From the NCBI GenBank assembly GCA_007116135.1, contig SKIZ01000106.1, positions 1-37,789 on the forward strand: DNA of 37,789 nucleotides, written 5' to 3'. Positions within the stretch are counted from its first letter, which is position 1. Each line of letters opens with the position of its first letter. The notes below the pieces were generated by a model. It was not told the origin of the DNA. It did not search any database and was given only the letters and a program-made list of their open reading frames with translations. This document shows, in pieces, positions 13,462 through 22,446 of the stretch. The stretch comes from Burkholderiaceae bacterium. Its GTDB lineage: Bacteria > Pseudomonadota > Gammaproteobacteria > Burkholderiales > Burkholderiaceae_B. The position numbers and the translations under genes are program-made.

Positions 13462-13782
13462 CTAGGGTCGGCTGCGCTGCTGGAACTTATCTGGTCGCAG
13501 CACCTGCACTTCAGAGAAGTAAATGGTCAAGCCATAAAAAGCACCGTACTCGGCCAGTAGATGCTCGGCGATCGCATCGGCCACACCAAGCGCACAAATG
13601 ACTTCCATGCGAATCGAGCGGTCTGCCTCCCAGGTGCCCTCACGCACGCCGCTTGGGCCGCCACCACGAACATCGGTCACTGTGTAGCCGGCGGCTCCTA
13701 GTCGTTGCACATCCTCGATGAGCAGACGCTCCAAATTCGCTTCGGCAATAATGACCAGCAACGACCGTGAATGCTTTTGCAT
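13462..13782 (-). CDS. PII-like protein, SbtB-like
   Basis: SLLVIIAEANLERLLIEDVQRLGAAGYTVTDVRGGGPSGVREGTWEADRSIRMEVICA; 3 nt downstream of an SbtA-like gene. Confidence 0.82.
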   Translation of the reverse strand: MQKHSRSLLVIIAEANLERLLIEDVQRLGAAGYTVTDVRGGGPSGVREGTWEADRSIRMEVICALGVADAIAEHLLAEYGAFYGLTIYFSEVQVLRPDKFQQRSRP

Positions 13783-13785
13783 CGC

Positions 13786-14754
13786 TTACCCCCCAGTTAA
13801 CCACTGAGCCATTTTGATGTAGATCGGGATCCCGAGCACCACATTAAACGGGAACACGATACCAAGCGCAATCGTGATTGATAACCCGGCGTTGGCAGCC
13901 GGCACCGCAATTCGCATCGCCGTGGGTGCCGCAATGTAGCTTGCGCTGGCAACTAACGTGGCCATGATCGCCACCCCACCGGTAGATAACCCTAGCAAAA
14001 GGCCAAGCGCAGCACCGAGGACCGACAACCCCAGCGGGAAAACCACCCCCACGACAACCACCTGCCAGCCGTAGCGGCGCACCTGAGCCAAACGCCCGCC
14101 TGCAACCAGACCGAGCTCCAACAAAAACAACGCCAAAACACCCTTAAAGGGATCAATAAAGACAGCCTTAATGGGTTCGGTGCCTACCGGTCCAGCGACA
14201 GCACCAATAATCAATCCGCCAAGCAGTAACAGCACGCTTTTGCCAAAGACCACGTCATGCAGCAACTTGCCCCACTGACCGCTGCGCGCACCCGATTGCT
14301 GGTCAAACATTCGGGCCAGCAAGACCCCAGCGATGAGCCCCGGTGCCTCGAGCACAGCGACCCACAGCGGTGCATGGGCCTCGTAGGCGATCTCGTGCCG
14401 AACCAAGGCTGCCGTCACCACCGCAAAAGTCACCACGCTGACCGACCCAAAATGCGCACCTATGGATGCGCTGTCGGGGCCGTTAAATCGCAATGCCCGC
14501 AAAACCGGATAAAGCAACAACGGCACCACAAAACCGATGGCAGCCACCCCAATGACTTGGGGCAACACTGCCCCCATGGGTTGCTGGGCCAGTTCAATAC
14601 CACCTTTTAAGCCAATGGCCAGCAGCAGGTAAATTGAAAGGGTTTCATACAACGCCTCGGGCAAGCGTAAATCCGAGCCCACGAGCCTGGCAAAAACACC
14701 TAGCAGGAAGAAAAAGATAACGACGTCAAACATGGATGCGGTAGCTGCAATCAA
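13786..14754 (-). CDS. SbtA-like sodium-dependent bicarbonate transporter family permease
   Basis: FFFLLGVFARLVGSDLRLPEALYETLSIYLLLAIGLKGGIEL, GAHFGSVSVVTFAVVTAAL, ASASYIAAPTAMRIAVPAANAGLSITIALGIVFPFNVVLGIPIY. Confidence 0.88.
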   Translation of the reverse strand: MIAATASMFDVVIFFFLLGVFARLVGSDLRLPEALYETLSIYLLLAIGLKGGIELAQQPMGAVLPQVIGVAAIGFVVPLLLYPVLRALRFNGPDSASIGAHFGSVSVVTFAVVTAALVRHEIAYEAHAPLWVAVLEAPGLIAGVLLARMFDQQSGARSGQWGKLLHDVVFGKSVLLLLGGLIIGAVAGPVGTEPIKAVFIDPFKGVLALFLLELGLVAGGRLAQVRRYGWQVVVVGVVFPLGLSVLGAALGLLLGLSTGGVAIMATLVASASYIAAPTAMRIAVPAANAGLSITIALGIVFPFNVVLGIPIYIKMAQWLTGG

Positions 14755-14827: not shown

Positions 14828-16369
14828 ATGACTCACACTGTTGTTTGGTTCAAGCGCGATTTGCGCGTGCATGACCACGCGCCACTGGCCCAAGCGACTC
14901 GCTTAGGGCCAGTCAGTTGCGTCTACTTTATTGAACCGGCAATCTGGCAAGCGCCCGATGCTGCCACCCAACACTACCATTTCATTGTCGAGAGCCTAAA
15001 GTCGCTTGAGCAGTCGCTCAAACAAATCGGGCTGCACCTGCAAGTGCTTGTGGGACCGGCGACCGATTGCCTGACACGTCTATGGCAGCACCAGCCCTTT
15101 GAGCAGCTTTGCTCGCACCAAGAGACCGGCAATGGCCTGACTTATGAGCGCGATCGTCAAGTCAGCCGCTGGTGTCGTGACCATGCAGTGACGTGGCAGC
15201 AATCCCAACAGTTTGGCGTTCATCGCGGCGCGCACGACCGAGATCACTGGAAACAAGCCTGGACGACGCACTGCCAGGCGCACATCATTGCAACACCGGG
15301 CCAAGCTCAGTCAGCAGGCATGGCACTTTGCGATGCGATACCGCCAGCAAGCGAACTAGGTCTAACCGAACCAGACCCACCCAAGCGCCAGCGCGGGGGC
15401 CGAGAGGTCGCGCTCGATACGTTCAATGATTTTTTACAGGTGCGCAGCCGCCAGTACCGTGGCGGCATCTCCTCGCCCCTATCGGCGCCAACAGCGTGCT
15501 CGCGCCTCTCACCCTATCTGAGTTACGGCTGCTTATCGATGCGCGAGGTCTTCCAAGGTACACAAGCGCAGCTGCACTGCATCGCGGCGCAACACTCACG
15601 CCAAGCTCTCGGTCTGCAATCGTTTATCAGCCGCCTATACTGGCACTGTCACTTCATACAAAAGCTAGAAGACGAACCTGAGCTTGAGTCGCGCAACCTG
15701 CACCGCGGCTATGACGGTTTGCGCGAACACCAATGGTGCGATGAGCGCTTTGGTCGGCTAACCGAAGGCAAGACCGGCTGGCCTTTGGTAGATGCCTGTG
15801 TGGCGATGTTAAAGCACACCGGTTGGCTCAATTTCCGGATGCGCGCCATGCTGGTGAGCGTTGCCGCTTATCCTTTGTGGCTACATTGGCAACCGGTGGG
15901 TCACTGGCTAGCCCGGCAGTTTCTGGATTACGAGCCCGGCATTCACTGGAGCCAGATGCAAATGCAATCAGGCACCACCGGCATCAACATCCCCCGGATA
16001 TACAACCCCATCAAGCAAGCACAGGACCATGATCCACAGGGGCAGTTCGTGCGCCGATGGCTTGAGCCGATGCGACGGGTCCCCGATTCGTGGTTACTGC
16101 AACCGTGGCTCATGCCGATTAATTTGCAGCGCCACCATGGTGTGATCGTGAGCCAAGATATTGCTCATCCAATGGTCGATCTGCAACAGGCCACACAACA
16201 GGCCAAAGCGCGCTTGTTCGCGTTGCGTCAGACACCCGAGGTCAAAGCCGCGCGCGCTGGCATCATAAAAAAACACGGTTCACGCAAACGCTTAGAGACA
16301 CCAAAACGCGCATTGCGCGATGCACGTAATCGGCAGGCCGAAAAAAACCAACTCAGTCTGGACTTCTAG
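14828..16369 (+). CDS. Cryptochrome/photolyase family protein (class I-like, FAD-binding)
   Basis: [125 protein letters not shown]. Confidence 0.93.
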
Positions 16370-16371
16370 CC

Positions 16372-16527
16372 ATGCGCGGCGTGAAAAAAGAGCACCTGCC
16401 TGAAAAAACCTGTCTGACCTGCAAGCGGCCATTTGCCTGGCGCAAAAAGTGGGAAAGCGTCTGGCAGGACGTCAAATATTGTTCTGAGCGCTGCCGCAGA
16501 CAGCGCGACAAATCACAAGGCTCATGA
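16372..16527 (+). CDS. DUF2256-like small zinc-finger protein
   Basis: Below ORF-track cutoff. [51 protein letters not shown]: CxxC...CxxxC pattern, lies between photolyase genes, overlaps the next start (ATGA). Confidence 0.88.
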
Positions 16528-17810
16528 TGACCGTTCTTTACTGGTTTCGCCAAGACCGACGCTTGGCAGACAATCCCGCCTTGTGCCAGGCCGCGGGCCT
16601 CGGACAACGGCTTTTGCCGGTGACCATGCGCCTTGAGCCCGAGCAAACCGTCTGGGGATTTGAGCGCCACGGCCCTCATCGACTGGGGTTTGAGGCGCAG
16701 GCGCTTAGCGGGTTGGCTCAAGCGCTAGAGAGCCTGGGCAGTGCGCTCTACCAACCCAAAACCCCCGGCGCAGCCGGGCTCATTGAACTGGCTCGCGACG
16801 TGGGTGCGACGCACGTGGTGTGCGAGGCGCTAAGCGCCCCCGAGGAACAAGCCCAAATCCAAGCGCTCAAGGGCGCAGGACTGAGCGTGCTCGCCATTGA
16901 ACAATCGGCGCTCATCGGCCACGACCGCCTGCCCTTTGCGCCACAAGACACGCCAGACGTCTTTAGCGAGTTTCGCCGCCAAATTGAGCGCACACCGATC
17001 AAGCCGCGCACACCATTGGCTGCGCCAGCTACACTGCCCAAGCCACCTGCGACGATTAACGCCGCAAGCCGCTGGTGCGCAAACGTGAGCCCGCGCGCGC
17101 TCGATCAGCGCAGCGCCTTTGCCTGGCAAACCGAGCCGTGGCAAGGCGATGAGCAATCGGCACAAGCGCATCTGGCACGATACTTCGAAGGCCATTGGCC
17201 ACAGCACTACAAGCAAACCCGCAATCGCTTAAGTGGCACCCATGACTCGACCAAGTTCTCGCCTTGGCTTGCTGTGGGCGCCTTGTCGGCTGCGCAAATC
17301 TGGAGCGCCTTGAAGGCGCACGAGGCTAAGTTTGGGGCCAACGACAGCACCTACTGGATTGGTTTTGAGCTTTTGTGGCGCGATCATTTCCGCCTGATCA
17401 TGCAGCGCTATGGCGCGCAGCTGTTTCGCACTCAGGGCATCACGGTGTCTCATTCGCGCAAGCATCAACCAAGCACTCAAGGCTTTGAGCGCTGGCGCTT
17501 GGGCCAGACCGGTCATCGTCTCATCGATGCAGGCATGCGTGAATTGGCTAGCACTGGTTACCTGTCAAACCGCATGCGCCAGATCGTTGCGAGTTACCTG
17601 ATTCATGAAATGCGTGGACACTGGTTAGCCGGTGCAGCCTGGTTTGAGCACTGCCTGATTGACTTTGATGTCCATAGCAACCAGGGCAATTGGGCCTACA
17701 TTGCCGGTGTGGGCACTGACCCACGCGCCGGACGTCAATTCAACCCCGATAAGCAAGCGCGCGAGCATGACCCCGATGAGCGTTACCGCAACCTTTGGAG
17801 CCAGCCATGA
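16524..17810 (+). CDS. DASH-type cryptochrome/photolyase
   Basis: [107 protein letters not shown]. Confidence 0.92.
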
Positions 17811-19333
17811 CGACCTTGCGGTTGATTTTGGGCGATCAGCTCAACACCCAACATAGTTGGTTTAGACAGACTGACCCAAGCATCCATTACGTTTTCATGG
17901 AGGTGCGGCAGGAGACGGACTACGTTTTGCATCACGCGCAAAAAGTGATCGCAATCTTTGCAGCCATGCGTCAGATGGCCAAAACGTTAACCGCCAGCGG
18001 CCATGTCGTGCATTACCTATCGATTGATGACCCGCACAACACCCACAGCATCACAGAGAACCTGCTCGCACTGGCTGCGCAAATCAATGCCAGCGCCATT
18101 CAATACCAAGCGCCTGACGAGTGGCGCCTTGAGCACGAGCTGCGGCTGTTTGCCAGCGACTGTCGCCTGACAGTTCAGCGTGTCGAGAGCGAGCACTTTT
18201 TAAGTGAACGCGAGATGGCGCCAGCCCTATTTGGCAAACGCAAACGGTGGTTAATGGAGCACTTCTATCGTGCCATGCGCCAGCGCCACGCGATACTGAT
18301 GGATGGTAACAAGCCCGTCGGTGGCCAGTGGAACTACGATGCCGAGAACCGCAAGGCTTGGTCAGGCACCCCGCGCCCGGCGCCTGATCAACGCACACGC
18401 CATGACCACTCGTCGCTGTGGCGAACCATCCAGGCCGCTGGCGTGCAAACCTTTGGTCACCCGGATGCGCAAGCCCTGGCGTGGCCAATTGATCGCACCG
18501 AGGCCTTAGCCCAGCTGACCCACTTCATTGATCACGTGCTGGCGCTCTTTGGTGACTACCAGGACGCCATGCATACCGAGGAGCCGTTCTTATTTCACAG
18601 CTTATTGTCATTTGCGCTCAATACCAAGATGTTGCACCCGCTTGAGGTTATCGAGGCCGCCCAGACCGCCTGGCGTGACGGCCGTGCGCCGCTGGCGGCC
18701 ACAGAAGGCTTTATTCGACAAATTCTGGGCTGGCGCGAATACGTGCGTGCAGTCTATTGGCACACCATGCCAGGCTACACCGAGCGCAATGGGCTTGGAC
18801 ATCAACGCGAGCTGCCAGCCTGGTTCTGGACTGGCCAAACGCGCATGCAGTGCCTGGCCAAATCGATTGGACAGTCACTAGAGAGCGCCTACGCCCATCA
18901 TATTCAGCGACTGATGGTCATTGGCAACTTTGCATTATTAGCCGGCCTATCGCCCCAAGCGGTTCATCGCTGGTACCTCGGTGTTTATATCGATGCATTT
19001 GAGTGGGTTGAGGCCCCCAATACGCTTGGCATGAGCCAGTACGCCGACCAAGGCTTGCTGGCGACCAAACCCTACGTCAGTAGCGCGGCATACATCAAGC
19101 GCATGAGCAACTACTGCAAAGGCTGCCATTACGATCACAAAGCCCGCATCGGAGCCAATGCATGCCCGTTCAATTCGCTTTACTGGGACTTCTACGCGCG
19201 TCATGCCGATACCTTCGCCAAAAACCCTCGAATTGGCATGGCGTATCGGCAACTGGCTAAAATGACCCAAGAGCAACGTCAGGACATTGGCGAACAAGCG
19301 ATGTTTTGGCGCGACAATTTAGACCATCTGTAA
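17807..19333 (+). CDS. Iron-sulfur bacterial cryptochrome/photolyase (FeS-BCP, PhrB/CryB-like)
   Basis: [93 protein letters not shown] (4 Fe-S cysteines). ATGA overlap with the upstream gene; ORF-track TTG start is 12 nt too early. Confidence 0.94.
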   Translation: MTTLRLILGDQLNTQHSWFRQTDPSIHYVFMEVRQETDYVLHHAQKVIAIFAAMRQMAKTLTASGHVVHYLSIDDPHNTHSITENLLALAAQINASAIQYQAPDEWRLEHELRLFASDCRLTVQRVESEHFLSEREMAPALFGKRKRWLMEHFYRAMRQRHAILMDGNKPVGGQWNYDAENRKAWSGTPRPAPDQRTRHDHSSLWRTIQAAGVQTFGHPDAQALAWPIDRTEALAQLTHFIDHVLALFGDYQDAMHTEEPFLFHSLLSFALNTKMLHPLEVIEAAQTAWRDGRAPLAATEGFIRQILGWREYVRAVYWHTMPGYTERNGLGHQRELPAWFWTGQTRMQCLAKSIGQSLESAYAHHIQRLMVIGNFALLAGLSPQAVHRWYLGVYIDAFEWVEAPNTLGMSQYADQGLLATKPYVSSAAYIKRMSNYCKGCHYDHKARIGANACPFNSLYWDFYARHADTFAKNPRIGMAYRQLAKMTQEQRQDIGEQAMFWRDNLDHL

Positions 19334-19353
19334 CCTTCTTTTTGCCTGGAGTG

Positions 19354-19737
19354 ATGATGCAAGAAGCCCTTAATGTCTTAGGCGAACCATTAGAGGCTTG
19401 TTCGTTTGACCCGCTAACCGGTTTTTTCCGTGATGGTTGCTGTCAAACCAATGAGCAAGACCACGGCACCCACGTTGTGTGCGCAAGGATGACTGAGGAG
19501 TTCCTGACCTTTTCGGCTGAGCGAGGCAACGACTTAATCACCCCTCGACCCGAATGGCGTTTCCCGGGACTAAAACCAGGCGATCGCTGGTGCCTTTGTG
19601 CCACCCGCTGGCGCGAGGCGATGCTCGCGGGACTAGCGCCCCCAGTGATCCTGGCGGCGACCCATCAAAAAGTGCTGATTTACGCCACGCTAGAAGAGCT
19701 AAAGGCGCATGAATATAAGGTTCAGCCCCGGGGCTGA
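19354..19737 (+). CDS. DUF2237 family protein
   Basis: [89 protein letters not shown]. Starts about 20 nt after the FeS-BCP gene. Confidence 0.9.
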
Positions 19738-20048
19738 TGAGCGCAAAGGCGGTCGATGGCCTTAGCCAACTCAATGTCTTTGACCGTCAACCCACCCGCA
19801 TCATGGGTGGTCAGATCGATATTGACCCGGTTATAGACATTGCGCCACTCGGGATGATGATCGGCTTTCTCGGCTAACAAGGCCACTTGTGTCATGAAAC
19901 CAAAAGCCTCGACAAAGCCGCCAAAGCTGATCTGACAACGGATTCGATCAGCTAGCTGCGTGTCTTGGGAAAGCTCAACTTGCCAGCGAGCGTCAAGCCC
20001 AAGGCATGCGTGCTGTAAGGCATCGCCCGTCAGTCTTGTCAGTGACAT
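19722..20048 (-). CDS. Pterin-4a-carbinolamine dehydratase (PCD/PhhB family)
   Basis: [25 protein letters not shown]...[51 protein letters not shown]; the ADHHPEW motif is diagnostic. Confidence 0.93.
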
Positions 20049-20066
20049 GATCAACCTCCATTAAAA

Positions 20067-21302
20067 CTAGCTTGGCTTTAATTCATTGGCCGGTTGATGC
20101 TCGATTGTGGCGTGCTTTTCACTGGGCAATAGCATGACAAAAAGTAGCGTGCCAACAGAGATGAGCGCCATGAACATAAACAACGAGTCAAACCCCGCTG
20201 TTTTGACAAAGGGCCCCAACAACCACACCGCCAAAGCGCTAAAACCGAGCGAAATCGCCAATCGAAAACCCGCCACACGCGAGCGCACCCGATCGTCTAC
20301 ATAGCGCACGAGCACGACATCAATAAACGGAATAGACCCAAAAATAAAGACCATGCAGCCAATTAAGGCCACGTAAAGCCACCATCCCTCGGTAAAGGAT
20401 GCCAGCATCAACAACGGCACCTGCGCGAGCACAATTGTCAAAAACAGCGGCTTGACTGCCACCCGGTCAAGCAGTCTCCCGACCACCACTTGCGCAAAAG
20501 CACCAATGGCATAGACGGCAGCGAGCAACATCCCAAGCGAAGCAGGATCCTCGATAATGCCCTTGAAACGCTCGACCATGAGTTGGCCATTGCCATTGGT
20601 CGTGAAGTTAAACAGTAAATTGGCTGAAGCCGAGGCAATGGTCAGAACCAACAAAGCCCGAACCAGCAATCGGCGCGGCAACTGCACCTTGGCTTTGGTT
20701 GTGCGCTTGGCAGGCGCCTCTGTTTCCTGTGCACAGTAATGCATAAACAACAAACCACAGACCAGTGCCAGTATGGATGGCACCGCAAACGCCGCGCGCC
20801 AGCCAAACCATTGAACCAGAAACCCCGTGATTAAGGCGGCCACTGCAACACCCATGTTGCCAGCTAGGCCGTTGATGCCGATGGCCATGCCCGGACGTGC
20901 TGAACGCTGCACCAGCATCGGGATGCCCACGGGATGGTAAATCGAAGCAAACGCCCCCATCACGGTCAAAGCCAACGCCAGTTGCCAGGCTGATTGCGCC
21001 AGCGCCGCGAGCAACATTGAGCCTGCCATGCCGAAGAAAAATACCAGCATCATCTTGCGTCGGCCCCACAAATCACCGAGCCGGCCCGCAGGCACTGCCC
21101 CAAGGCCAAACAAAATAAAGGCGCCCACGCCAAACGGCATGAGATCTTCCCAATGCGTAAAACCGAAGTCAACAGCGATGACAGCCACAGCGGCAGCAAA
21201 GACCAGCAAGAACATGTGGTCAATCGCGTGTCCGACGTTCAACAAAAGACGTACTGGCAAGGGCCAGTCCTGGCTTTGACTCAAAGACGGGTTTTGTGAC
21301 AT
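20067..21302 (-). CDS. MFS permease, Fsr-like topology, substrate unknown
   Basis: 12-TM-like hydrophobicity; GRLGDLWGRRKMML, YHPVGIPMLVQRSARPGMAIGINGLAGNMG. Confidence 0.85.
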   Translation of the reverse strand: MSQNPSLSQSQDWPLPVRLLLNVGHAIDHMFLLVFAAAVAVIAVDFGFTHWEDLMPFGVGAFILFGLGAVPAGRLGDLWGRRKMMLVFFFGMAGSMLLAALAQSAWQLALALTVMGAFASIYHPVGIPMLVQRSARPGMAIGINGLAGNMGVAVAALITGFLVQWFGWRAAFAVPSILALVCGLLFMHYCAQETEAPAKRTTKAKVQLPRRLLVRALLVLTIASASANLLFNFTTNGNGQLMVERFKGIIEDPASLGMLLAAVYAIGAFAQVVVGRLLDRVAVKPLFLTIVLAQVPLLMLASFTEGWWLYVALIGCMVFIFGSIPFIDVVLVRYVDDRVRSRVAGFRLAISLGFSALAVWLLGPFVKTAGFDSLFMFMALISVGTLLFVMLLPSEKHATIEHQPANELKPS

Positions 21303-21319
21303 GCGAACCTACAAAATGA

Positions 21320-21748
21320 TCAGGCGCGCCCGATCACCGATGCAGTCAACATCAATTCCTCAAGCAACGCCATCGAGACACGCCCCGACATTTGATAGGG
21401 ATCAAGTACGGGCTTCTCGGAATACTTTAACACCACGGATGTGTTCAGTTTGGCCAGATTGACGTGCCCCATCGTCCAGCCACCGAAACGGCGCTCTTGA
21501 ATCTCTTCGTAGTGCAGCAACACCACATCGCAGTGACGCGCGTCGCGCAAGATCATGCTGTAGAGACGATTGATCTCATGGCGCCCGCCCTCGATGGCTT
21601 GTAGAAAAATATCACCGCCATAGCACAACACACCCGTGACTCCATTGGCTGAGTTGTATTCGCGTGCAGAAGCCATAATCGAATCGGTCAGCTCCGGGGT
21701 GACTTTACCCTCGGCTGCTTTACTGACATATAAAAGGCGCACCAGCAT
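21320..21748 (-). CDS. Short BLUF-domain blue-light photoreceptor
   Basis: MLVRLLYVSKA...NSANGVTGVLCYGGDIFLQAIEGGRHEINRLYSMILRDARHCDVVLLHYEEIQERRFGGWTMGHV. Tyr7, Asn32, Gln50, Trp91 and Met93 match BLUF photocycle positions. No output domain; 142 aa. Confidence 0.92.
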   Translation of the reverse strand: MLVRLLYVSKAAEGKVTPELTDSIMASAREYNSANGVTGVLCYGGDIFLQAIEGGRHEINRLYSMILRDARHCDVVLLHYEEIQERRFGGWTMGHVNLAKLNTSVVLKYSEKPVLDPYQMSGRVSMALLEELMLTASVIGRA

Positions 21749-22446
21749 TATCGATCCTCCTTGGGAATGAGCGACAGAAACTCACGCCGCAGATTCGGGT
21801 CTTTTAAAAAACATCCACGCATGACCGAGTTGATCATCCGGCTGCCCATGTCGCGCACGCCACGCCACGCCATGCAGTAGTGCTTTGCGCTCATGACCAC
21901 CGCAAGCCCGTCAGGCTGAGTTTTCTCCTGAATCAGATCGGCGAGCTGAACAACGGCCTCTTCCTGGATCTGTGGCCGATTCATGATCCATTCAGCTAAT
22001 CGCACATATTTCGATAGGCCAATCACGTTGGTGTGCTCATTGGGCATCACCCCAATCCAGACATGCCCGATGACCGGGCAAAAGTGGTGGCTGCAGGCGC
22101 TTCGAACTGTAATTGGCCCAACGATCATGAGCTCATTTAGGTGTTCGGCATTGGGAAACTCTGTGGTTGGTGGCTGAACACGATAGCGACCACCAAAGAC
22201 CTCCATGAGGTACATCTTGGCAACACGACGCGCCGTATTGTTGGTGTTGTGATCACTGTCGGTATCGATGACCAGGCTATCGAGCACACCCTGCATTTTG
22301 TGCTCGACCTCATCGAGTAACTGCTCAAGCTCGCCGGGCTCAATGTAGTCAGCAATATTGTCATTGGCGTGAAAGCGGCGCTTGGCCGCTTGCAGCCGCT
22401 GCCGTATCACCACCGACATCGGTGTGCCTGTGTCTTCTTTTGCCAT
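21748..22446 (-). CDS. folE: GTP cyclohydrolase I (FolE family, variant CSHH motif)
   Basis: SACSHHFCPVIGHVWIGVMPNEHTNVIGLSKYVRLAEWIMNRPQIQEEAVVQLADLI...AKHYCMAWRGVRDMGSRMINSVMRGCFLKDPNLRREFLSLI. ATG at 22446 preferred over the TTG start at 22482. TAATG overlap with the BLUF gene. Confidence 0.9.
   Translation of the reverse strand: MAKEDTGTPMSVVIRQRLQAAKRRFHANDNIADYIEPGELEQLLDEVEHKMQGVLDSLVIDTDSDHNTNNTARRVAKMYLMEVFGGRYRVQPPTTEFPNAEHLNELMIVGPITVRSACSHHFCPVIGHVWIGVMPNEHTNVIGLSKYVRLAEWIMNRPQIQEEAVVQLADLIQEKTQPDGLAVVMSAKHYCMAWRGVRDMGSRMINSVMRGCFLKDPNLRREFLSLIPKEDR

Follow-up and report, generated by a model that had tools for sequence, protein, structure and literature searches.

The locus described here raises the question of why a gene for GTP cyclohydrolase I should be followed, in one operon, by a gene for a blue-light receptor. 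FolE turns GTP into 7,8-dihydroneopterin triphosphate and thereby opens the pathway to folates and pterins. In the window, which is the whole stretch of 37,789 nt that was analysed (contig SKIZ01000106.1 of assembly GCA_007116135.1), folE is followed on the minus strand by genes for a BLUF photoreceptor, a major facilitator superfamily (MFS) transporter and a pterin-4a-carbinolamine dehydratase (PCD). This run converges on a plus-strand run encoding a photolyase-like protein, a DUF2256-type protein, a CRY-DASH, an FeS-BCP and a DUF2237 protein. An earlier note on this DNA proposed that products of the minus operon synthesise, transport or recycle a pterin under blue-light control to serve the photolyases, or that the operon acts as a light-dependent pterin signal. 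Comparison across genomes leads to a smaller unit. The nine-gene island is not a single evolutionary unit, and its conserved core is folE together with the PixD-type BLUF gene. Because this pair persists across lineages, light control of FolE can be strongly inferred from the sequences.

Distribution of the folE-BLUF pair

When genomes were scanned with this FolE as query, a BLUF gene lay directly 3' of folE, on the same strand, at 79 of 80 loci. Within a larger set of 134 loci of this divergent FolE-I subfamily, comprised of that scan, whole-genome searches and stretches from the genomes so found, a BLUF gene lies directly downstream in 109. The gap between the two genes ranges from -1 to 277 nt (median 3) and is no more than 20 nt in 98 of these 109 pairs; in the window the folE stop and the BLUF start share 1 nt (TAATG). 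The pair spans at least 14 named genera and extends beyond the class (genome G756, locus L190), with other neighbours varying, and is also carried on the megaplasmid of Cupriavidus metallidurans CH34 (L208). At 17 loci from deep lineages only folE and bluf are widely common, third families being present in at most two loci.

Co-occurrence of folE and BLUF is far above chance. Among genomes of a class-wide sample that contain both a FolE and a BLUF, the genes are adjacent in 5/5 cases for the subfamily versus 0/18 for other FolEs (Fisher p 3e-5, on counts made by eye from two tables and with a p value that ignores phylogeny). BLUF presence mapped on the FolE tree gives 7 changes, versus 24 with shuffled labels. 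At one locus (L195, genome G693) a FolE of an otherwise BLUF-less clade adjoins a pair-type BLUF; the two genes may have come together there independently for a second time, or one FolE copy may have been exchanged for another. The full island, by comparison, is confined to the genus of the window and close relatives, where it is often incomplete, and folE-BLUF is a much older unit. The co-occurrence of the nine families that the earlier note suggested checking is found far above chance for folE-BLUF, and only in the genus and its close relatives for the island as a whole.

The FolE and BLUF proteins

The window FolE scores 145 bits against PF01227 (cut-off 27), where canonical FolEs reach about 250 bits, and lies under the equivalog cut-off of NCBIfam TIGR00063 (144.6 vs 181.6 bits), which marks it as a member of a divergent subfamily. 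Sequence identity between this subfamily and the remaining FolEs in the class is roughly 28-45%. Catalytic and Zn-binding residues are intact: the Zn ligands C/H/C and the catalytic His are all present, and C110, H112, H113, S135, K136, R139, Q151, E152, H179, C181 and R185 (E. coli numbering) are invariant in 109/109 BLUF-paired FolEs. H150, N152 and other positions are specific to BLUF-paired members and are suggestive of a surface loop immediately before GLSK; they are not used as evidence here.

The window's assembly (2.07 Mb, 79% complete) is from a Burkholderiales bacterium whose nearest named kin are Zwartia and metagenome-assembled genomes of Burkholderiaceae. Its sole FolE-I is that of the island. 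The same holds throughout the genus, where a FolE of this subfamily is the only FolE-I in 9/9 genomes, two of them single-contig, and FolE2 was not found in any of the nine. Because of this gene content the subfamily FolE is probably the housekeeping folate enzyme of the genus. The candidate view of folE as a second, light-dedicated copy was rejected for the genus on the same grounds. As a separate observation, locus L171 (7876-10290, plus strand) holds an 805-aa open reading frame with a GTP cyclohydrolase II domain (PF00925) at 361-514 and PF01227, a relative of the present FolE, at 629-804, possibly a natural RibA-FolE fusion.

The BLUF protein has about 140 aa, with C-terminal helices and without an effector domain. 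Photocycle residues Y7, N32, Q50, W91 and M93 are invariant in all 109 FolE-paired BLUFs. A monomer model of the window protein (predicted local distance difference test, pLDDT, 87.6) has as its top PDB folds the PixD proteins Tll0078 and Slr1694, matched at full length with a template modelling (TM) score of about 0.86, above every other BLUF structure; PixD is the top full-length match by sequence too. The C-terminal region bears a conserved motif of its own. Pair-type BLUFs score 215-255 on their own profile and other BLUFs of the same order at most 108, and because of this far lower score of the others the pair-type BLUF is, on profile evidence, a distinct subfamily too. No pixE-like response regulator adjoins the BLUF gene, whose neighbours in the window are folE and the MFS gene, and there is no common third gene at the 17 deep-lineage loci. 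The BLUF protein looks to be a functional PixD-type blue-light sensor, probably made in step with FolE.

Proposed light control of FolE

Direct light-dependent regulation of FolE by its BLUF partner is the explanation favoured here, with a confidence just short of even. As the paired loci have no further gene in common, direct contact of the two proteins would be the most economical way to achieve this, and we place moderate confidence in it. Translational coupling of folE and BLUF would place the sensor alongside a housekeeping GTP cyclohydrolase I as both are made. In crystals PixD is a decamer in which one pentameric ring is stacked on another, and light takes apart the complex that it forms with PixE (PMC5899715); by homology, the BLUF protein may form pentameric or decameric rings. 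The decamer of GTP cyclohydrolase I has D5 symmetry, and in mammals GFRP pentamers cap it at both ends, on the five-fold axis (PMC7750480). A BLUF ring would most likely bind the five-fold-symmetric FolE decamer in a GFRP-like manner, and blue light would then alter the activity or stability of FolE. That the ring docks on the five-fold face itself, making the enzyme light-gated, is a narrower proposal and a more tentative one; the symmetry match between PixD and FolE is an argument and not proof.

Such control would probably serve to match folate and pterin output to light, by replacing photolabile folates, by feeding methenyltetrahydrofolate (MTHF) to photolyases or by limiting photosensitising pterins. 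In the lineage of the window the MFS and PCD genes would have joined the folE-BLUF operon and the photolyase cassette would have settled opposite. The photolyase genes beside folE-BLUF seem to be a local addition.

Several results weigh against this explanation. BLUF is missing beside 25 subfamily FolEs, and FolE therefore works without BLUF. One of these 25 loci (L166) is cut off by a contig edge, and since a pair-type BLUF of the same genome lies at another such edge (L167), the two genes may still be adjacent. In a mirror-tree comparison of 109 pairs, the correlation between the distances of FolE and those of BLUF (r 0.86) is no better than that with neighbouring genes at the same loci. No natural FolE-BLUF fusion was found among the loci examined. 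An AlphaFold2 model of the FolE-BLUF read-through (stops as residues, L036 as query, alignment without two rows from a plasmid record) reached a predicted TM score of 0.37 and a mean pLDDT of 64, values too low to inform on contact either way. Finally, one observation in favour is weaker than its counts suggest: a MerR or extracytoplasmic function (ECF) sigma gene lies within 9 kb of 9/25 BLUF-less loci versus 0/109 BLUF-paired loci, but the loci bearing such genes fall mostly in two FolE clades, so that the contrast represents few independent events and its p value is overstated.

Alternative explanations

Control could instead be indirect and transcriptional, with BLUF relaying light to a regulator or a cyclic di-GMP enzyme encoded elsewhere and folE being a co-transcribed, light-responsive gene. 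BluF of E. coli, for example, acts on BluR. GTP cyclohydrolase genes do sit in transcriptional light and singlet-oxygen regulons (PMC9758184, PMC7074977), and BLUF-less members of the FolE subfamily adjoin MerR or ECF genes. However, the tested MerR and ECF families are not among the genes within 9 kb of any paired locus, no regulator gene is common to these loci, where folE alone is constant, and short BLUFs such as PixD work through protein contact. We regard indirect control as rather unlikely. It is improbable, too, that the pairing reflects co-expression only, with BLUF placed after folE for convenient expression while acting on another partner, in motility or biofilm formation for instance. 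Other short BLUFs do have unrelated partners, and the mirror-tree signal of FolE and BLUF does not exceed that of their neighbours; against this, the pair lasts across its wide range of genera and beyond the class while all other neighbours change, and class-wide the linkage to BLUF is restricted to this FolE subfamily.

The supply of pterin to photolyases proposed in the earlier note is quite improbable as the main role. In its favour, folE-BLUF-MFS-PCD lies opposite the photolyase cassette in the genus and close relatives, CRY-DASH binds MTHF, and PCD is present without the phenylalanine hydroxylase PhhA. Bacterial pterin signalling is known as well, though no pterin efflux system is, according to a 2026 review (PMC13259868). 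Yet the pair is mostly kept away from photolyases: dozens of folE-BLUF genomes have no relative of the window photolyases within 9 kb. In Comamonadaceae the pair stands at the end of a run nudB-EEP-clsB-folE-BLUF, a folate context without photolyases, in which NudB clears the equivalog cut-off of dihydroneopterin triphosphate diphosphatase, the enzyme that follows FolE in folate synthesis. Two loci (L033 and L147) keep folE-BLUF-MFS-PCD, and the cassette is absent from the stretch examined. As the only FolE-I of a genus without FolE2, the enzyme probably provides general folate supply, and no copy is dedicated to the photolyases. Nor would a pterin from FolE account for the antenna of FeS-BCP, dimethyl-ribityllumazine, which derives from GTP cyclohydrolase II chemistry.

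Comparison with known systems

Direct regulation of FolE by BLUF would resemble the PixD/PixE system (PixD being Slr1694 or Tll0078). The likeness extends over the full-length fold and sequence, with all photochemical residues kept, and PixD works by forming with its partner a complex that responds to light (PMC5899715), as is proposed here. Unlike in that system, the partner gene is folE and not one for a response-regulator-like protein, the BLUF has its own C-terminal motif, and phototaxis genes are absent nearby. Mammalian GFRP is a small protein that binds as a ring to a FolE decamer of five-fold symmetry (PMC7750480), the mode of binding suggested for BLUF; the small partner here belongs to the BLUF family, to judge from its best matches, and the putative input is light rather than tetrahydrobiopterin or phenylalanine.

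Light induces a folE operon of P. mendocina that lies close to the gene of a LOV receptor (PMC9758184). This Pseudomonas regulon of Class II LitR and short LOV (phrB, cryB, folE, ufaM) likewise places a blue-light receptor gene near a folE operon and includes photolyases (PMC9758184). Its control is transcriptional, through MerR and LOV proteins, whereas in the present case BLUF is inside the folE operon. A LitR-type MerR gene lies within 9 kb of 0/109 paired loci and is absent from 8/9 genus genomes, including that of the window (79% complete). The RpoE-ChrR regulon of Rhodobacter (phrA, cfaS, folE2) similarly co-induces a GTP cyclohydrolase and a photolyase under photo-oxidative stress (PMC7074977), but uses FolE2 and ECF-sigma control and has no BLUF partner. 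Light or photo-oxidative control of the GTP cyclohydrolase step is thus an established theme, reached via differing sensors, of which BLUF would be another.

The component families are all known. Regulons joining GTP cyclohydrolase and photolyases have been published (PMC9758184, PMC7074977), and the view that the combined module lacks a described function holds only for the BLUF partner. In the open literature searched, no description of the folE-BLUF pairing or of a dedicated BLUF partner for FolE was found, which is weak evidence given that subscription journals were mostly outside the search. The pair is not described in PMC9758184 or in a paper on BLUF genomic context (PMC9020721), and to judge from their titles the other papers that mention both BLUF and GTP cyclohydrolase deal with different subjects.

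Short BLUFs that lack effector domains are widespread, and for few of them is a partner known; folE-BLUF suggests a concrete one for an entire subfamily. If direct regulation is correct, entry into the folate and pterin pathway would be under direct post-translational blue-light control in many non-phototrophic Proteobacteria, and bacteria common in fresh water and soil (Acidovorax, Hydrogenophaga, Polaromonas, Cupriavidus and others) would have their supply of folates and pterins set by light. This would help to explain the recurrence of GTP cyclohydrolase in light and singlet-oxygen regulons, and would provide a new light-switchable enzyme, a natural optogenetic switch without fusion.

Organization of the island and neighbouring genes

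Open reading frame calls and family profiles place the nine genes in two convergent runs, as the earlier note had described them (Table 1); the 3' ends of the plus and minus operons overlap by 16 nt. The start of folE is most likely the ATG at 22446. The arrangement of folE-BLUF-(MFS)-PCD facing a photolyase cassette recurs at several loci of the genus and close relatives, and at others parts are absent, lie apart or are truncated where a contig stops. In the listed alignments of the genus and near relatives, neither the stretch preceding folE nor that preceding the photolyase operon shows a shared promoter motif.

Table 1. Genes of the island and adjoining genes in the window
Feature	Position	Strand	Family evidence
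PII-like gene, beside SbtA	13462-13782	-	
SbtA-type bicarbonate transporter	13786-14754	-	PF05982, 351 bits
Photolyase/cryptochrome-family, divergent	14828-16369	+	PF00875 and PF03441
DUF2256-type small Cys protein, 51 aa	16372-16527	+	Read from sequence
CRY-DASH photolyase/cryptochrome	16524-17810	+	TIGR02765, 394 bits vs cut-off 317
FeS-BCP / (6-4) photolyase (CryB, PhrB type)	17807-19333	+	PF04244; PDB matches
DUF2237 protein	19354-19737	+	PF09996, 185 bits
PCD, pterin-4a-carbinolamine dehydratase	19722-20054	-	PF01329; NCBIfam PRK00823.1-3 above cut-off
MFS transporter	20067-21302	-	PF07690, 125 bits; no NCBIfam family above cut-off
BLUF photoreceptor, short PixD-type, 142 aa	21320-21748	-	PF04940, 98 bits
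folE, divergent GTP cyclohydrolase I, 232 aa from ATG	21748-22446	-	PF01227, 145 bits

The first photolyase-like protein falls below every NCBIfam photolyase class cut-off, and its best solved relatives score about 125 bits. FeS-BCP has as its best PDB match 7ykn ('FeS-BCP, CryPro', E 4e-148), and also matches 3zxs (CryB) and 4dja (PhrB) with E < 1e-136; it contains a DPRP domain, and the Cys of the CxxC...C stretch are seen in the sequence. A relative of the DUF2256-type protein is annotated as DUF2256 in Burkholderia anthina.

PCD is single-copy in 9/9 genus genomes and lies in the folE operon every time, and PhhA is absent from 8/9. The remark that no phenylalanine hydroxylase accounts for the PCD, first made for the window, thus extends to most of the genus. 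The MFS gene joins folE-BLUF in the genus and close relatives, making it a lineage-specific operon member; its position makes it a candidate pterin or folate transporter.

SbtA and PII-like genes adjoin the photolyase cassette in some genus members. DUF2237 has been linked to phototrophy and phototaxis, and sbtA, DUF2237 and a photolyase paralogue are enriched in proteorhodopsin-bearing Flavobacteriia (PMC5932025). Microbial rhodopsin (PF01036) is present in 3/9 genus genomes (G001, G002 and G005; L214 and L215), and none was found in the incomplete assembly of the window.

FolE subfamily members without BLUF

The link of folE to light suggested in the earlier note is borne out by BLUF as near-constant partner of the subfamily and, for some BLUF-less members, by clusters with MerR, ECF-sigma and photolyase genes. 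Some of the BLUF-less loci with a MerR or ECF gene (Burkholderia anthina; L194) group folE with genes for a cyclopropane fatty acid synthase-family protein, DUF1365, an FAD oxidoreductase, DUF2256 and FeS-BCP, which make up a recognisable photo-oxidative cluster. By their resemblance to known regulators, the MerR and ECF proteins near BLUF-less folE may respond to light. One genome (G441; L160 and L159) has two subfamily FolE copies, with a BLUF gene paired to one and an ECF sigma factor gene behind the other. At three loci (L168, L173 and L209), among them an alphaproteobacterial plasmid (Roseibium), FolE is near genes for a cupredoxin of the plastocyanin/azurin family and an ECF sigma factor.

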